Below, piece by piece: positions 681 to 56,766 of a stretch of DNA of 64,000 nucleotides. A program made the translations under genes and the position numbers. The notes under the pieces were generated by a model that was not told the DNA's origin, did no database searches, and saw only the letters and a list, made by a program, of their open reading frames with translations. Origin of the DNA: Lonepinella koalarum (lineage in GTDB: Bacteria > Pseudomonadota > Gammaproteobacteria > Enterobacterales > Pasteurellaceae); assembly GCF_004565475.1 (NCBI RefSeq), contig NZ_SRHX01000006.1, positions 62,001 to 126,000 on the forward strand, read 5' to 3'. Within the stretch, counting starts at the first letter, position 1. Each line of letters begins with the position of its first letter.

Positions 681-1157
681 TTATTCCACTTTAAAATGTC
701 CTGATTTTCCACCGCACTTTTCTAACAAACGCAAGCCTGAAATCACCATATCTTTTTGTACCGCCTTACACATATCATAAATAGTCAATGCTGCCACGCT
801 TGCTGCCGTTAAGGCTTCCATTTCGACTCCCGTTTTGCCAGTTAATTTACACAGGCTTTCAATGCGAACTTGGTTACTGTCTGAAAGTGCGGTTAAATTC
901 ACTTCTACTTTAGATAATAACAACGGATGGCATAACGGAATCAGTTCCCACGTCCGTTTCGCCGCTTGAATCCCTGCAATTCTGGCGGTGGCAAATACAT
1001 CCCCTTTATGATGATTACCCTTAACAATCATTGCTAAGGTTTCTGGTGACATTGTCACAAACACTTCTGCTCGAGCTTCTCGCACTGTATCTTGTTTAGC
1101 CGACACATCCACCATATTGGCTTCACCATTTTGATTAATATGGCTAAATTCTGTCAT
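681..1157 (-). CDS. moaC: Cyclic pyranopterin monophosphate synthase MoaC
   Basis: Converts the 3',8-cyclised GTP made by MoaA into cyclic pyranopterin monophosphate, the second half of step one of Moco synthesis. The 158-residue protein starts [19 protein letters not shown], the standard MoaC N terminus, preceded by an AGAGA ribosome site. An in-frame upstream Met at 1262 gives 35 extra residues that run into a repeat element and were rejected. Conserved blocks are [14 protein letters not shown] (substrate-binding His), [22 protein letters not shown] and GGKSG near the C terminus. It follows moaA across a ~195-base gap that holds an inverted-repeat element. moaB is absent from this operon. 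Confidence 0.96.
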
Positions 1158-1199: not shown

Positions 1200-1299
1200 A
1201 TTGTAGGGGCGTATTGCATACGCCCTTTTAATGCTTGCCCCAATTTTAGGGCAAATTTGCAAATTCGAGATGATGGCGTATGCAATACGCCCCTACAAT
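1200..1299. repeat. 100-base nested inverted-repeat element, copy 1
   Basis: Two perfect 25-base arms (1200-1224 and 1275-1299) begin TGTAGGGGCGTATTGC and are exact reverse complements. Each arm is itself nearly palindromic (GGCGTAT-TGC-ATACGCC). The centre holds a smaller hairpin, TGCCC...GGGCA. The element lies between moaA and moaC, so the moa mRNA would carry it as a cruciform-like structure. The same arms recur at 38346-38440, and related shorter forms occur at 50388-50461 and 56735-56766. There is no transposase and I did not identify a target-site duplication. Confidence 0.9.
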
Positions 1300-1351: not shown

Positions 1352-2362
1352 TTACCCACCAATACTAGCTAAATTTGCTCTTACACCGCTATCGCCTTGA
1401 TGTAACAAATGATGTTCTCGTTTACCCTGTAACGCACCGAAAAGCCTTGCTTGTAAAAGTAATTGCTGGTTATCTGATTGTAACAATTCTCGCAAATCAA
1501 CGCCTTCTTCGCCAAATAAACATAAATGCAATTTGCCTTTAGCGGAAACTCGCAAGCGGTTACAGCTGACACAAAAATTCTTCTCGTACGGCATGATTAG
1601 CCCAATTTCACCTTGATAATCAGGGTGCGAAAACACTTTTGCTGGTCCATCAGTCCGTCCTTTCGGTTGTAATTGCCAACCTTGTCGCAATAATTTATCC
1701 ATCAAAATTTGCCCAGAAATATGATGTTTTTGGAAAAAATAATCCATTTCTCCCGTTTGCATTAATTCAATAAATCGCATTTGAATCGGACGATGCTTTA
1801 TCCAAGCCAAAAACTGCTCAAACTCCCGATCATTAAAGTCTTTCATCAACACTGAATTAATTTTGATTTTCTGATAACCTACTTCAAAAGCACGATCAAT
1901 ACCACGCATTACATCATCAAATTTATCTTCCCCTGTAATACGATAAAACTGACGAGGGTCAAGACTATCCACGCTCACATTAATAGATGTAATTCCCGCT
2001 TTTCGCCACACCTCTACGTCTTTCGCCATACGATAACCATTAGTGGTCAATGCCAAGGTGTGAATATTCTCAATATTCGCAATATTTTCCACTATCTCAA
2101 TAAAATCTTTGCGTAAGGTTGGCTCACCGCCGGTAATTCGAACTTTCTCTGTTCCCATAGCAGCAAACGCCTGTATCACACGACGAATTTCATCTAGGTG
2201 AAGAAATTTATCACGTTCAGGATTGGGTTGATAACCATTAGGCAAACAATAGTTACAACGAAAGTTACAAACATCGGTAATCGACATTCGTAAATAGTAG
2301 TATTCTCGCTGGAACGGATCAACAAGCCGCGCCGACAAATTTCGGATAGGAATAGATTGCAT
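1352..2362 (-). CDS. moaA: GTP 3',8-cyclase MoaA
   Basis: Radical SAM enzyme that rearranges GTP to 3',8-cyclo-7,8-dihydro-GTP, the first committed step of molybdenum cofactor synthesis. The N-terminal radical SAM cluster is visible as Cys32, Cys36 and Cys39 (CNFRCNYC), followed by [10 protein letters not shown]. The second 4Fe-4S site is in [20 protein letters not shown]. The protein ends in Gly-Gly (ANLASIGG), which is needed for activity in E. coli MoaA. The 336-residue length is normal. It is the first gene of the moa operon, with a probable Moco riboswitch in its leader and ybhK divergent, the same neighbourhood as in E. coli. Confidence 0.97.
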
Positions 2363-2389
2363 AAGATACCTTTATAAAAAAGAATAGGA

Positions 2390-2490
2390 CAAACCGTTTC
2401 CAGCGTATCCCCGAGTGATGATAAAACTAACCATCACTGGCATTGCTACCCTATCAACTCATTGAGAGACTTAGGTACACAAGCTCGGTA
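2390..2490 (-). ncRNA. Probable molybdenum cofactor (Moco) riboswitch in the moaA leader
   Basis: Read on the minus strand, the moaA leader contains GATAGGGTAGCAATGCCAG, then a 7-bp hairpin (arms 2432-2438 and 2414-2420), then CTCGGGGATACGCTGGAAAC. From memory, the last block parallels the E. coli moaA Moco RNA (CTCCCGTATCTGGAAAGG), with the variable P3-type hairpin in the same place. Bases 2484-2488 can also pair with 2411-2415 as an enclosing helix. In E. coli this RNA lowers moa expression when cofactor is plentiful. The identification is by eye; a covariance search with RF01055 would settle it. Confidence 0.72.
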
Positions 2491-2637
2491 TATGAAATTG
2501 CTTTTATTTTAAAAGAGATAACCCCAAAGTACAACCCAAAAGCAGATGATTAACACCTTTTAGGTAGAAAAATAAGTTAATTATTTTTATTCAATTATAG
2601 ATAATTTTATATAACGTAAAAATAAAATAACCTTTCT

Positions 2638-2691: not shown

Positions 2692-3609
2692 ATGATAACA
2701 ATGTTAAACCACGATCACCTAATACAAGTTAAACATCTCGTTGCCATCGGTGGCGGTCATGGTTTAGGGCGAGTCATGTCATCATTAAATTTTCTGAAAG
2801 AACAGCTCACTGGCATTGTTGCCACCACAGATAACGGTGGCTCAACGGGTCGAATACGACAGGATCATGGTGGTATTGCATGGGGAGATTTACGCAACTG
2901 TTTAACCCAAATTATTGCCAATCCCACTACCGCATCTGCTGTTTTTGAATATCGCTTTAGTGGCTCAGGTGAGTTAGCCGGACATAATTTAGGTAATCTG
3001 ATTTTAAAAGCCTTAGAAGATATGCACATCCGTCCCACGGATGCTATCAATTTAATTCGTAACTTTTTGCGAGTAAAATCTTTTTTACTCCCCATGTCAG
3101 ATGCTCCAGTACATTTAGGGGCAGTTTTGCCATCTGGTGAAAAAATTTGGGGTGAAGTCGCTGTTGATAATTTACAACAGTTACCCTCTTCGCTATTTTT
3201 ATCTCCGATGGTTCAGGCATCTCCTGAAGCTGTTAATGCTATTTTGCAAGCAGATGTGATTTTACTGGGGCCCGGTAGCTTTCTCACCAGCATTATGCCA
3301 ACATTATTATTACCTGAAATCGCGCAAGCTTTAAAAGCCAGTTTCGCTAAGATTATTTTTATTGATAATCTCGGTATCGAACACAGCCCATCTGCACGCT
3401 TATCTTTAGCCGATCGCATTGATTGGATAAATAAAACAGTTGGCAAAAATATTGTAAATGGCGCCATCACATCTATACAACTTAAAGATCAAAAACCATT
3501 AGATGTTAAATTATTAGTCAGAAAGTTAAACGCAGATGATGTTACCTATCGCCACGATCGTGATCGGCTTTGTTCTGCTATTAATGACATGATCGCAGAA
3601 TTAGCTTAA
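2692..3609 (+). CDS. ybhK: YvcK/YbhK family protein (CofD-like, gluconeogenesis factor)
   Basis: Cytosolic Rossmann-like protein of the CofD/YvcK family. Bacillus YvcK is needed for growth on gluconeogenic carbon and normal cell-wall synthesis, and it binds UDP-sugars; the E. coli homologue YbhK has no proven reaction. Visible family features are VAIGGGHGLGRVMSSL (N-terminal nucleotide-type loop), TTDNGGSTGRIR, DLRNCL and LLGPGSFLTSIMPTLL. The 305-residue length is normal. An AAAGGG ribosome site precedes the ATG. The gene is divergent from moaA, the same arrangement as ybhK and moaA in E. coli, which supports orthology. The family call is firm; the biochemical role is open. Confidence 0.9.
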   Translation: MITMLNHDHLIQVKHLVAIGGGHGLGRVMSSLNFLKEQLTGIVATTDNGGSTGRIRQDHGGIAWGDLRNCLTQIIANPTTASAVFEYRFSGSGELAGHNLGNLILKALEDMHIRPTDAINLIRNFLRVKSFLLPMSDAPVHLGAVLPSGEKIWGEVAVDNLQQLPSSLFLSPMVQASPEAVNAILQADVILLGPGSFLTSIMPTLLLPEIAQALKASFAKIIFIDNLGIEHSPSARLSLADRIDWINKTVGKNIVNGAITSIQLKDQKPLDVKLLVRKLNADDVTYRHDRDRLCSAINDMIAELA

Positions 3610-3693
3610 AGATATATTAGTGACTCATTTGGAAATAACGTCCCCAATAAATCATAGGCTATTTGATATTTTTTCAACTATTTTTACAAACAT

Positions 3694-4344
3694 TTATTTA
3701 ATTAATTTCAGTTGATCTAATACAGAATGTCGTTGAAAAAATTCACCGCAGTTCGGCAGATATTTCACATTAATCGACTGATTCTGGTAAACAAAATCTA
3801 AACCGTAGGCATGCAAATAAGTACGGTCAATATTTTCCGTTTTATCACCATAAAGCTCATCTCCTAAAATAGGGCTACCTAAACTTTTCATCGCCACTCG
3901 TAACTGATGTGTTTTGCCGGTTTGTGGTGTTAACACAAATAAACGTAAATTAGGCTCACAACTCACGGAATAAAAACATGTTATCGCAGGATTTTGTTTA
4001 GATGGACTCAATTTCCATGCGCCACGTCGTGCTTTTTCCATATCCCCCACGACTAATCCTTGTTTCTTTTTCGGTTTATGCGATGACAAGGCTATATATG
4101 TTTTGCTTATTTTATGTTTGGCAAATAATCCAGATAAGATAATCGCAGCAGGTTGATTTAATGCCAAAATCAACAACCCAGAAGTGACTTTATCCAAACG
4201 ATGAACTAACCAAACCTGTTTGATACCAAGTTGATTCGCTATCATTTGGGTTAATCCGATTTCCTGATCATCTTTATGCACACTTAACCCACAAGGTTTA
4301 TTGATGATGATAAAATCCTGATGTTGATATATAATTTCAAACAT
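3694..4344 (-). CDS. RluA-family RNA pseudouridine synthase
   Basis: Single-domain pseudouridine synthase of about 216 residues, without the S4 RNA-binding domain of RluC or RluD. The catalytic motif HRLDKVTSGLL supplies the nucleophilic Asp, and the N-terminal INKPCGLSVH and C-terminal PQTGKTHQLRVAMKSLGSPILGD are typical of the RluA group. The start MFEIIYQHQDFIIINKP is chosen because an in-frame Met 36 codons upstream adds unrelated residues and runs into the opposite gene. The size and lack of accessory domains resemble the uncharacterised H. influenzae HI0042 type. The RNA target cannot be told from sequence. Confidence 0.85.
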   Translation of the reverse strand: MFEIIYQHQDFIIINKPCGLSVHKDDQEIGLTQMIANQLGIKQVWLVHRLDKVTSGLLILALNQPAAIILSGLFAKHKISKTYIALSSHKPKKKQGLVVGDMEKARRGAWKLSPSKQNPAITCFYSVSCEPNLRLFVLTPQTGKTHQLRVAMKSLGSPILGDELYGDKTENIDRTYLHAYGLDFVYQNQSINVKYLPNCGEFFQRHSVLDQLKLIK

Positions 4345-10817: not shown

Positions 10818-10981
10818 ATACTTAATCATGAGTAATTCTTTGATTAATTAGAAGTTCCTTACTTTTAATTAAGTATTATGTTGTGTTTGCATATTGTTCG
10901 GGAAACTGAACATAACTTCCTGTATATTTCGCCCTAAACTTGGGGTAATAACACCGTACTTTACAAGTGCGGTGTTTTTTT
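10818..10981 (+). ncRNA. gcvB: GcvB small regulatory RNA
   Basis: Hfq-dependent sRNA that base-pairs with mRNAs of amino acid and peptide uptake genes. It is divergent from gcvA, as in E. coli. The G/U-rich seed TATGTTGTGTTTGC (within 10874-10890) matches the R1 region of enterobacterial GcvB and the AACACAACAT-type target seed reported in Pasteurella multocida. A second conserved block, ACTTCCTGTATATTTCGCCC (starts 10914), matches E. coli CACTTCCTGTACATTTACCC. A 5' hairpin (10822-10828 with 10841-10847) and a 3' terminator (10950-10981) bound it. The 5' end is inferred from the promoter at 10783-10811. Confidence 0.82.
10950..10981 (+). terminator. Rho-independent terminator of gcvB
   Basis: AACACCG (10950-10956) pairs with CGGTGTT (10970-10976) and is followed by a run of T. 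The right arm includes a full uptake signal AAGTGCGGT, so the DNA uptake signal and the terminator are the same sequence. After it, 10982-11094 holds only the AT-rich ilvE leader. Confidence 0.85.
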
Positions 10982-11094
10982 ATGGTGTCATTCTAACATT
11001 AGCCCATAGAAAATCTCAAATAATAGTTTTCAATCTTTGCATTATCATGTAAATTTAGCGACATCATCTTTTTTAAATACAATAAGGATAAATT

Positions 11095-37334: not shown

Positions 37335-38336
37335 ATGACAACCGAACAATTACTGGCTCAACTCTTTGAAAAACAACCATTAAGCCAAAAACAAGCAGAA
37401 CAACTATTTAACGCTGTTATGCACGGTGAATTAGCCAATGAACAATTAGCAGGGGCATTAATTGCCTTAAAATTACGTGGCGAAACACCAGAAGAAATCA
37501 GTGGTGCAGTCAATGCTGTGGTGGCAAATGCTCAACATTTCCCTACCCCATATTATGATTTTGCCGATATTGTCGGAACGGGGGGAGATGGTGCCAACAC
37601 CATTAATATTTCCACTGCCTCTGCCATTGTGGCTGCCAGTCTTGGTTTTAAAGTTGCCAAACACGGCAATCGTAGTGTATCGAGCAAAACTGGGGCGAGT
37701 GATGTACTGAGTGCGTTAGGGGTAAATATTGGAATGCGTGCTGAAACCGCACGCAAGGCGTTAGATGAAACCAATATTTGCTTTTTATGGGCGCAACAAT
37801 ATCATCAAGGTTTTAAATATGCTGCTCCAGTTCGCCAAGCCTTGAAGACTCGCACATTGTTTAACATTCTTGGTCCATTATGTAACCCTGCTCGCCCAAC
37901 GCATCAATTATTAGGGGTGTATTCGCCAGATTTAATTAAACCTTATGCGGAAACGGTAGTCCGTTTAGGAGGTAAAAATACCATTGTGGTACATGGTTTA
38001 GGGCTAGATGAAGTCGCCATTCATGGCAGAACGGATATCGCAGAAATTAGAAACGGCAAGATTGAATATTACAGGGTCACACCGTATGATTTCGGTTTTG
38101 AACCACAACCACTAGAAAGCCTACGTGGTGGTGAACCAGCAGAAAATGCACAATTTCTCACCGCACTTTTACAAGGCAAAGGCAAAACCGAACACGTTCA
38201 AGCCGTGGCAATGAACGTAGCCATGTTAATGAAAGTGTTTGGTCATCAAGATTTGAAACAAAATGCAGAACAAGTCCTTGGTGTGATAGCAAGCGGTAAA
38301 CCTTATCAAACTTTGCTAAAATTAACCCAGTATTAA
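37335..38336 (+). CDS. trpD: Anthranilate phosphoribosyltransferase TrpD
   Basis: Transfers phosphoribosyl from PRPP to anthranilate. The 333-residue protein contains the PRPP loop [16 protein letters not shown], then [21 protein letters not shown], the anthranilate-binding region and [16 protein letters not shown]. The N-terminal helical domain starts at [22 protein letters not shown]. It is a stand-alone enzyme, not fused to TrpG as in E. coli. A 95-base inverted-repeat element follows before trpCF. Confidence 0.97.
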
Positions 38337-38345
38337 CATATAAAC

Positions 38346-38440
38346 ATTGTAGGGGCGTATTGCATACGCCCAAAAATCCTACATAAATCATGAATAATGA
38401 TAAAATTGAGCGTTAGGGCGTATGCAATACGCCCCTACAA
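38346..38440. repeat. 95-base nested inverted-repeat element, copy 2
   Basis: Perfect 25-base arms (38347-38371 and 38416-38440) share the sequence TGTAGGGGCGTATTGC with copy 1 at 1200-1299, while the central ~44 bases differ. Arms are self-palindromic as in copy 1. The element fills the trpD-trpCF gap, inside the operon. The matching arms with unrelated centres suggest that the ends define the element. Confidence 0.9.
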
Positions 38441-38468: not shown

Positions 38469-39902
38469 ATGAACATCAACAAAAACGCCCCAACCATTCT
38501 CCAAAAAATCGTACTCGATAAATTGGACTGGGTAAAACAGAAAAAAACCGAATTTCCGCTAAACGAATTTCAACAAAAAATCACCCATTCTGACCGCAGT
38601 TTTTATCAAGCCCTAATGTCATCAAAGACACAAGGCAATCATCAACAACCTGCTTTTATTTTAGAATGTAAAAAAGCCTCGCCGTCTAAAGGCTTAATTC
38701 GTGCCGAATTCAATTTGGCAGAGATTGCTCATGTATATAAACATTATGCGACCGCTATTTCCGTACTGACTGATGAAAAATATTTCCAAGGTGATTTTGC
38801 TTATATTCAGCAAGTACGAAATATCGTCAGCCAGCCCGTGTTATGCAAGGATTTTATGGTGGACGAATACCAAGTTTATTTGGCTCGCTACCACCAAGCA
38901 GATGCGATTTTATTAATGCTTTCCGTGGTAGATGATGAAACATACCAAAAATTATCTGACCTTGCTCATCAGCTTGATATGGGTGTATTAACCGAAACCA
39001 GTAACGAAGCGGAATTTGAACGAGCCTTGAGCTTAGGGGCAAAAATTATCGGGGTAAATAACCGTAATTTGCACGATCTCACGGTGGATTTAAATCGGGT
39101 CAAATACTTGGTGGAAAAATATCAACATCAGATTCCAGCGGATTCTCGCATTATCAGCGAATCAGGGATTTATACACACGCTCAAGTGCAACAGCTAAAA
39201 TCTGTGTCACACGGCTTTTTAATCGGCAGTAGCTTAATGGGTAGTACAGATTTAAATAATGCCGTACGTTCAGTGATTTTCGGCGAAAATAAAGTCTGCG
39301 GTTTAACTCGTCCGCAAGATGTGCAAGAAGCATACAAGCAAGGCGCTTTATACGGCGGTTTAATTTTTGCGGAAAAATCCCCAAGGAAGCTCAGTTTGAG
39401 ACAAGCACAAGAATTAGTCACCACTGCCCCATTGCGTTTTGTCGGTGTTTTCCAGAATCAGGAAATTGATTTTATCGTGAAAATTGCCAGCCAACTGCAA
39501 CTTTTTGCGGTGCAATTACACGGTTCAGAAAATGCCGAATTTATCACCGCACTTCGTGCCGAACTGCCTGAAAATATTCAAATCTGGCAAGCGGTTTCGG
39601 TGGATATTGACAACCAAACTGCGCTGCAAATTGATGAAATTTCAGTGGTCAATCGCTATGTTCTCGATAGTCAAATAGGTAATCAACAAGGCGGTACAGG
39701 CAAACCCTTTGACTGGTCAAAAATTCCTGCCGAATTGAAAAATCGCATTATGCTAGCAGGTGGGATTAGTCCAGAAAATATTGATCTTGCGCTTCAACAA
39801 GGCTGTTTAGGACTAGACTTAAATTCAGGCGTAGAAAGTGCCAAAGGGATAAAAAGTGCGGAGAAATTGACTGCAGTTTTTGAAAAAATTCATCGTTTTT
39901 AA
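38469..39902 (+). CDS. trpC: Bifunctional indole-3-glycerol phosphate synthase/phosphoribosylanthranilate isomerase TrpCF
   Basis: Two TIM-barrel enzymes in one 477-residue chain. The N-terminal synthase half (about 1-260) has [30 protein letters not shown] and [14 protein letters not shown]. The C-terminal isomerase half (about 265-477) has [44 protein letters not shown] and [11 protein letters not shown]. The fused form matches E. coli TrpC. It is the last gene of the operon; trpB and trpA are not here and are separate in Pasteurellaceae. Confidence 0.97.
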
Positions 39903-50387: not shown

Positions 50388-50461
50388 GTAAGGGCGAATC
50401 GGTATATTTGCCCGAAAATCACGCTCCGTTTTCAGCGGCGGACACATTGGTCCGCCCTTAC
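50388..50461. repeat. Inverted-repeat element related to copies 1 and 2 (diverged)
   Basis: GTAAGGGCG (50388-50396) and CGCCCTTAC (50453-50461) are the outer pair. Inside, GGGCGAATCGG...TTTGCCC and GGCGGAC...GTCCGCC form two further hairpins. The end motif differs from the TGTAGGGGCG ends of copies 1 and 2 by one base, but the architecture is the same. It lies between znuB and mrcB and ends 25 bases before the mrcB start. Confidence 0.75.
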
Positions 50462-56734: not shown

Positions 56735-56766
56735 TGTAGGGGCGAACCCATGGATTCGCCTCTACA
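56735..56766. repeat. Single-hairpin repeat related to copies 1-3
   Basis: TGTAGGGGCGAA (56735-56746) pairs with TTCGCCTCTACA (56755-56766), one mismatch, around an eight-base loop. It corresponds to one arm of the larger elements and lies in the gap between the sucrose PTS gene and the fructokinase gene, on their common transcript. Confidence 0.8.

Follow-up and report, generated by a model that had tools for sequence, protein, structure and literature searches.

Hairpin doublets between moaA and moaC and between trpD and trpCF of Lonepinella koalarum are very probably REPINs of a REP-RAYT system

The window analyzed here, a stretch of 64,000 nucleotides of the Lonepinella koalarum genome, holds two inverted hairpin doublets, one in the 194-nt gap between moaA and moaC and the other in the 132-nt gap between trpD and trpCF, together with two hairpin sites of a second type. 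We refer to the two types as family A and family B.

681-1157, minus strand: moaC
1200-1299, no strand assigned: family A REPIN between moaA and moaC, both on the minus strand
1352-2362, minus strand: moaA (Radical SAM and Mob_synth_C)
37335-38336, plus strand: trpD
38347-38440, no strand assigned: family A REPIN, 12 nt past the trpD stop and before trpCF
38469-39902, plus strand: trpCF
50388-50461, no strand assigned: diverged family B doublet with a GTAA-tagged half at either end
56735-56766, no strand assigned: single family B REP, a nearly full palindrome

An earlier note on this DNA had described the moa and trp elements as carrying perfect 25-base inverted arms that are themselves palindromic, and we could confirm both properties in the sequence: the arms lie at 1200-1224/1275-1299 and 38347-38371/38416-38440, and each single arm contains a hairpin of its own. 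The repeated unit is a 23-nt REP in which an unpaired GTAG directly precedes GGGCGTAT-TGC-ATACGCCC, giving an 8-bp perfect stem and a 3-nt loop. At the moa site the two REPs occupy 1203-1225 (plus) and 1274-1296 (minus) around a centre of 48 nt, and at the trp site 38349-38371 (plus) and 38416-38438 (minus) around a centre of 44 nt. The pattern GTAGGGGCGNAN{0,12}TNCGCC matched five times in the window, against an expectation of 0.00 from 100 shuffles. The predicted RNA folds have energies of −59.6 kcal/mol (z = −10.84) for 1200-1299 and −53.6 kcal/mol (z = −12.50) for 38347-38440. Assignment of the elements to a known RNA family was rejected, as the only Rfam matches in the window at the gathering threshold were a Moco riboswitch at the start of moaA (2351-2499, minus strand) and the gene of the small RNA GcvB (10820-10983, plus strand).

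The earlier note had counted four sites, and had named as its counter-case that only these copies exist in the genome. Neither view, nor that of four isolated hairpins, agrees with the 71 matches to the family A 23-mer (at most 3 mismatches; 50 exact) that we found in the 2,507,987 bases and 47 contigs searched, where the palindromic site C4:47782-47808 is counted twice, once on each strand, and where a reversed control gave none. At up to 4 mismatches, the genome stretches examined contained 73 family A REPs. Grouping of REPs with at most 5 mismatches in 35 stretches, with places retained if they held at least one REP at 3 mismatches or fewer, yielded 39 places, of which 13 hold a single REP, 2 a cluster, and 24 a pair, inverted with GTAG on the outside in 21 and otherwise arranged in 3. 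Some of those at contig ends derive from a single longer repeat, so that independent insertions number somewhat fewer than 39. The GTAG-outside inverted orientation, which is the REPIN form, thus accounts for 21 of the 24 two-member places. One contig (C30; L063:1258-1871 and 3402-4013) carries an inverted repeat of ~612 bp, 95% identical between its arms, around a 482-aa ORF, and a REPIN is present in each arm. Another carries an array of six REPs with a period of ~34 bp (C43:23169-23406; L069:1501-1738), and a search of the genome with the RAYT protein described below gave no match near it.

The centres of the doublets, which the earlier note had called unrelated, are not simply so. Near one arm, 12 of the 21 doublets match GATCGAGC at 6 or more of 8 positions, whereas 2000 shuffles gave 0.46 such doublets on average and never more than 3; the motif for this test was derived from the very data to which it was applied. 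Of these 12 centres, one pair is carried by the two arms of the 612-bp inverted repeat and a further pair by copies of a different repeat, leaving about 10 independent centres. The trp element scores 6 of 8, and the moa element, at 5, falls below the threshold. A shared centre motif is expected if a doublet moves as a unit.

The sites at 50388 and 56735 had been described as diverged or half-size relatives of the same arms. They are indeed of REP type, but they are better placed in a separate family B, a 26-nt REP with a loop longer than that of family A, for which the genome gave 22 matches at 3 mismatches or fewer (control 0), a single one of them without mismatch; the site at 56736-56765 enters this count twice, on both strands. 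The right half of the doublet at 50388-50461 (50436-50461) matches the family B pattern with 2 mismatches, and its left half is absent from the 22 matches. The genes on either side of this doublet encode an ABC-3 family permease and a PBP1b-like protein; the single REP at 56735-56766 lies between genes for a sugar PTS EIIBCA and a ROK (fructokinase-like) protein, both on the minus strand. Predicted RNA folds are −32.6 kcal/mol (z = −3.70) for 50388-50461 and −18.4 kcal/mol (z = −4.50) for 56735-56766. We read family B as an orphaned and mostly eroded relic whose transposase was not found in the genome searched: family A copies are near-identical and apparently recent, and family B copies apparently older and mostly eroded. 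In another Pasteurellaceae genome (G027), a RAYT gene is flanked by REPs of family B type (L051).

Outside the window, the genome encodes a candidate transposase for family A:

G000:C20:291468-291977 (G000 being this genome): RAYT-like gene, a 170-aa open frame

An array of family A REPs, some of them eroded and with an inverted REP at its far end, lies directly upstream of this ORF. One of its neighbouring genes we take to be bioD, and the other is an unrelated ORF. The sole NCBIfam match of the ORF was NF047646, REP-associated tyrosine transposase (E = 2.5 × 10−19; 69.6 bits against a curated cut-off of 80), a model that all 28 of 28 RAYT relatives matched at E ≤ 1 × 10−3; the Pfam model PF01797 (Y1_Tnp) scored 22.2, just below its cut-off of 23. 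A sequence search of the PDB at E ≤ 1 returned only 4er8 (TnpA_REP; E = 7.2 × 10−5), the structure of a RAYT in complex with a REP hairpin. In an alignment of 12 sequences (this RAYT and 11 relatives), N79, H80, H82, W131, Q132, Y152, N156, and P157 were invariant, and Y152 is presumably the catalytic tyrosine. The fold was judged on a homologue (L166, 56% identical), whose AlphaFold model (mean pLDDT 84.9) came closest to 4er8 when compared with the PDB library (E = 1.2 × 10−7, TM 0.62), suggesting that this RAYT is folded like the solved TnpA_REP. Genome-wide, Y1_Tnp matches comprised the RAYT place and one IS200-type transposase, and the RAYT protein matched one place in its own genome, with no second RAYT that could be assigned to family B. 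The IS200-type protein (C20:401979-402341) was rejected as the mover of the elements: it is a separate transposase of IS200/IS605 type (NF033573, 153.9 bits), adjoined by an ORF that, on reading alone, we take to be TnpB; the closest family A REP lies 4.4 kb off, at C20:397561, and the locus of the transposase (L031) contains nothing nearer than 10 mismatches to the family A REP.

REPs and RAYTs are associated across the family. RAYT homologues were found in 61 of 140 Pasteurellaceae genomes (E ≤ 1 × 10−3), 44 of which had a hit of at least 80 bits, and REPs matching the exact-type and the general pattern were found in 85 and 86 of the 140, respectively, with control patterns giving 0 apart from 1 in three genomes. 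The median number of general REPs per genome was 10.5 in the 44 genomes with a RAYT of at least 80 bits and 1 in the other 96 (Mann–Whitney test, P = 4 × 10−6, with relatedness among genomes ignored). Of 30 RAYT loci, 29 contain a hairpin tagged with GTAG, GTAA, or GTGG, often with the stem type repeated within the locus. REP-rich genomes do not always come with a RAYT: six (G016, G042, G049, G055, G084, and G095) have at least 20 general REPs and no RAYT hit, and these may have lost the transposase, may contain an assembly gap, or may depend on another mover.

We conclude that the moa and trp elements are very likely REPINs, that is, non-autonomous units of a REP-RAYT system that were spread by a RAYT and are tolerated in transcribed gaps. 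This origin is indicated by features legible in the sequences themselves: how the REPs are built, how many there are, how their doublets are oriented, the RAYT gene next to an array, the family-wide association of REPs with RAYTs, and the lack of REPs in the trp and moa gaps of most relatives compared. Both suggestions of the earlier note, non-autonomous mobile elements and sequences like REP/BIME, were right in kind, given the GTAG hairpins, the inverted doublets, the genome-wide matches, and the RAYT beside an array; the elements would have moved, and we infer that the RAYT encoded at C20:291468-291977 moves the family A copies. This single-strand HUH/tyrosine transposase would recognize the GTAG-tagged hairpin in single-stranded DNA, acting on single-stranded GTAGGGGCGTATTGCATACGCCC with its natural flanks; it would cut beside the hairpin and re-insert the doublet, or copy it, elsewhere. 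Copies would then persist for the most part where an insertion disrupts nothing, in the short transcribed stretches that separate genes of the same strand, and the family B sites would be relics of a second REP family. The elements thus represent a class of bacterial mobile DNA that has been described before, REPs and REPINs, and not a new one.

The placement of the copies bears on what they may do for the host. None of the 39 family A places lies wholly inside an ORF, as judged with a simple ORF caller. Gene context was resolved for 33 of them, and 29 of these lie between same-strand ORFs, 3 in divergent gaps, and 1 in a convergent gap. The corresponding share of same-strand gaps in the window is 52% by intergenic bases (P = 1.3 × 10−5) and 64% when gaps of at least 5 bases are counted (P = 0.0025); this background is small and hand-curated, with 57 genes picked from 68 window ORFs after overlapping and embedded ORFs had been dropped and moaC had been shortened to 681-1157. 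The earlier note had located three of its four sites in gaps within one transcript; all four lie between same-strand genes, but the genes around 50388-50461 need not form one transcript. Such a bias, together with very stable predicted RNA hairpins, is what might be seen if selection had favoured the elements as hairpins that act in the transcript, protecting the upstream message or lowering the downstream one, with adaptive placement in operons. The same placement is predicted, however, by the removal of insertions that hit genes or promoters, and a scan of the moa and trp elements for intrinsic terminators found no terminator-like site. With its strong predicted fold, the lack of a terminator-like site, and the Moco riboswitch at the start of moaA, the stretch from moaA through the element to moaC plausibly forms one message.

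Comparisons with relatives also argue against selection for an mRNA function. In most of the relatives compared, the trp and moa gaps contain no REP. The trp comparison took in 18 of 28 matching loci and called trpCF by length alone (454-486 aa): an ORF of this length is next after trpD in 9 of 17 relatives' loci (L085, L087-L089, and L096-L100), with a gap of at most 18 nt, overlapping in some, and no REP, while a different ORF follows trpD in the remaining 8 of 17, among them that of a genome of the same genus (G088). For moa, the comparison covered the 22 loci returned by the search; moaC lies downstream in 18 of 21 relatives' loci, with gaps of 9-116 nt in 15 and of 403, 606, and 750 nt in the other three. 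The G088 gap is 72 nt long and without a REP, that of G032 (L124; 403 nt) contains REP sequences, and that of G055 (L121; 116 nt) contains a GTAGGGAC inverted repeat missed by the automatic REP flag. The gaps were compared by eye, and no nucleotide-level empty site was found in the trp and moa gaps of these relatives. When 15 chosen G088 loci out of 24 matches were compared with 32 stretches of this genome, only 2 of the 14 REP places away from the RAYT shared a neighbour gene with a place here (E ≤ 1 × 10−15), and 2 further places gave only a match of 38-39 aa to a contig-end repeat. In one of the two gaps with a shared neighbour, G088 carries an inverted REP pair (L215:1501-1565) and this genome a single REP (L004:1501-1523); in the other, both genomes carry a pair and the stems differ. 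An effect of the elements on mRNA is possible, and we consider it unlikely that selection for such an effect explains them.

E. coli BIMEs bind gyrase, IHF, or Pol I, and the REPs here could likewise have been domesticated as sites of chromosome architecture, with the RAYT being only their historical source. PMC2817692 describes REPs and BIMEs as serving as binding sites. That reading seems very unlikely for family A, which occupies only 39 places in 2.5 Mb, and the variation of stem and loop among related genomes would fit a changing transposase better than a conserved host protein. It is hardly credible that the elements are MITEs of a DDE insertion sequence, with terminal inverted repeats formed by the arms; this reading would account for inverted arms around variable centres but sits badly with single arms that are GTAG-tagged hairpins, with single REPs and tandem REP arrays, and with a gene beside the array that encodes a HUH/tyrosine transposase.

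The reading of the moa and trp elements as REPINs agrees with several described systems, which we compare here from parts of their published accounts. REPINs of Pseudomonas fluorescens SBW25 (PMC3116915) are likewise doublets of inverted REP hairpins with a less conserved spacer, remnant singlets, and specific RAYTs nearby, but the REP sequence and the RAYT here are different and the copies are far fewer. The GTAG REP superfamily of 24 families shares the GTAG tag, the short stem, the dimers with GTAG outside, and the REPtrons, and prefers unidirectional and convergent gaps, as here (PMC3733652); our comparison draws on the text of that account, which makes no mention of Haemophilus, Pasteurella, Actinobacillus, Mannheimia, or Aggregatibacter. 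REPs of Haemophilus influenzae and H. parasuis also carry the GTAG tag and have RAYTs of their own (PMC2817692), but the Haemophilus stem, GTAGGGTGGG..., against GTAGGGGCGTAT... here, marks a different REP. A REP of the same dimensions, 23 nt with an 8-bp perfect stem and a 3-nt loop, belongs to REPtron Sm of Stenotrophomonas maltophilia (PMC8266576), although its stem and loop are not those of family A; the S. maltophilia genes have been placed in TnpA_REP subclass 2.5 (PMC6006769). This RAYT resembles subclass 2.4, or RAYT group 4, in its WQ motif and in the basal G-C pairs of its REP stem (PMC6006769), and carries NHMH and YIICNP, both near misses, where that subclass has NH[IFV]H and YIxNNP; the RAYT of L034 has NHIH and YIKNNP. 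A search of the open-licence literature for the exact family A arm returned one unrelated match and no relevant paper, and peptide strings, most of them typical of such genes, were not found there.

The same account describes REPs in frame inside RAYT genes of this subclass (PMC6006769), and we have therefore withdrawn in-gene REPs as a discovery of this work. Such REPs are present in close relatives of this RAYT, whereas its own frame contains none that is recognizable. Among the 30 Pasteurellaceae RAYT loci, 13 have in-gene REPs (e.g., L035, L037, and L040). In a scan across bacterial phyla (L133-L212), 61 of 80 RAYT loci had an in-gene REP, with 79 such REPs in total where codon shuffling predicts 0.05, and 79 of the 80 genes had open frames. 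These loci were the top-ranking 80 among at least 570 found by two peptide patterns, so that they represent one clade rather than all RAYTs and are not independent of one another, and they have at least 5 genes in common with the 30-locus set. REP density was 1.80 per kb within the RAYT genes; elsewhere in these loci it was 0.049 per kb within ORFs, called by a simple method, and 1.51 per kb in the remaining sequence, so that in-gene REPs are ~37 times denser per base than those of neighbouring ORFs. Forward in-gene REPs occupy frames 0 and 1 only, which follows from the open frame because the third frame would read TAG. By text match, 75 of the 79 lie between the two RAYT motifs; three of the other four look like cases in which the W motif was matched too early, and that of L134 is truly upstream. 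CTAC directly after the REP, a "double foot", is seen in 27 of 79 in-gene and 14 of 84 flanking REPs. Plus–minus order in 14 of the 17 genes with several REPs corresponds to a whole REPIN read as protein.

New in our data is that the in-gene and flanking stems of the same RAYT locus match: in 24 of the 32 loci that have both kinds of REP, an in-gene and a flanking REP share the same 8-nt stem, where permutation gives 3.5 such loci on average and at most 9 in 2000 runs; the flank window had been widened from 400 to 600 bases. This measurement was not found in the main-text parts of PMC6006769 considered here. We tentatively raise, as a rather unlikely reading, that the in-gene REP of this RAYT clade is a kept cis-element, either a hairpin that limits the gene's own expression or a resident master copy, and not passive debris; as a master copy, it would keep transposase and target sequence matched. 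As a separate observation, the family A 23-nt REP occurs in or beside the RAYTs of Acinetobacter puyangensis and two Capnocytophaga (L133, L135, and L138), which are only 45-52% identical to the RAYT of this genome; Capnocytophaga belongs to another phylum.

These findings turn an unexplained repeat into what is very probably a complete REP-RAYT system in Pasteurellaceae, with its REPs, a candidate transposase beside an array, and an older orphan family. The 140 genomes and the 80 RAYT loci amount to a natural experiment in which joint change of a transposase and of the hairpin it targets can be followed. The elements in the moa and trp gaps are ready-made sites at which a neutral passenger might be told from one that alters operon expression.
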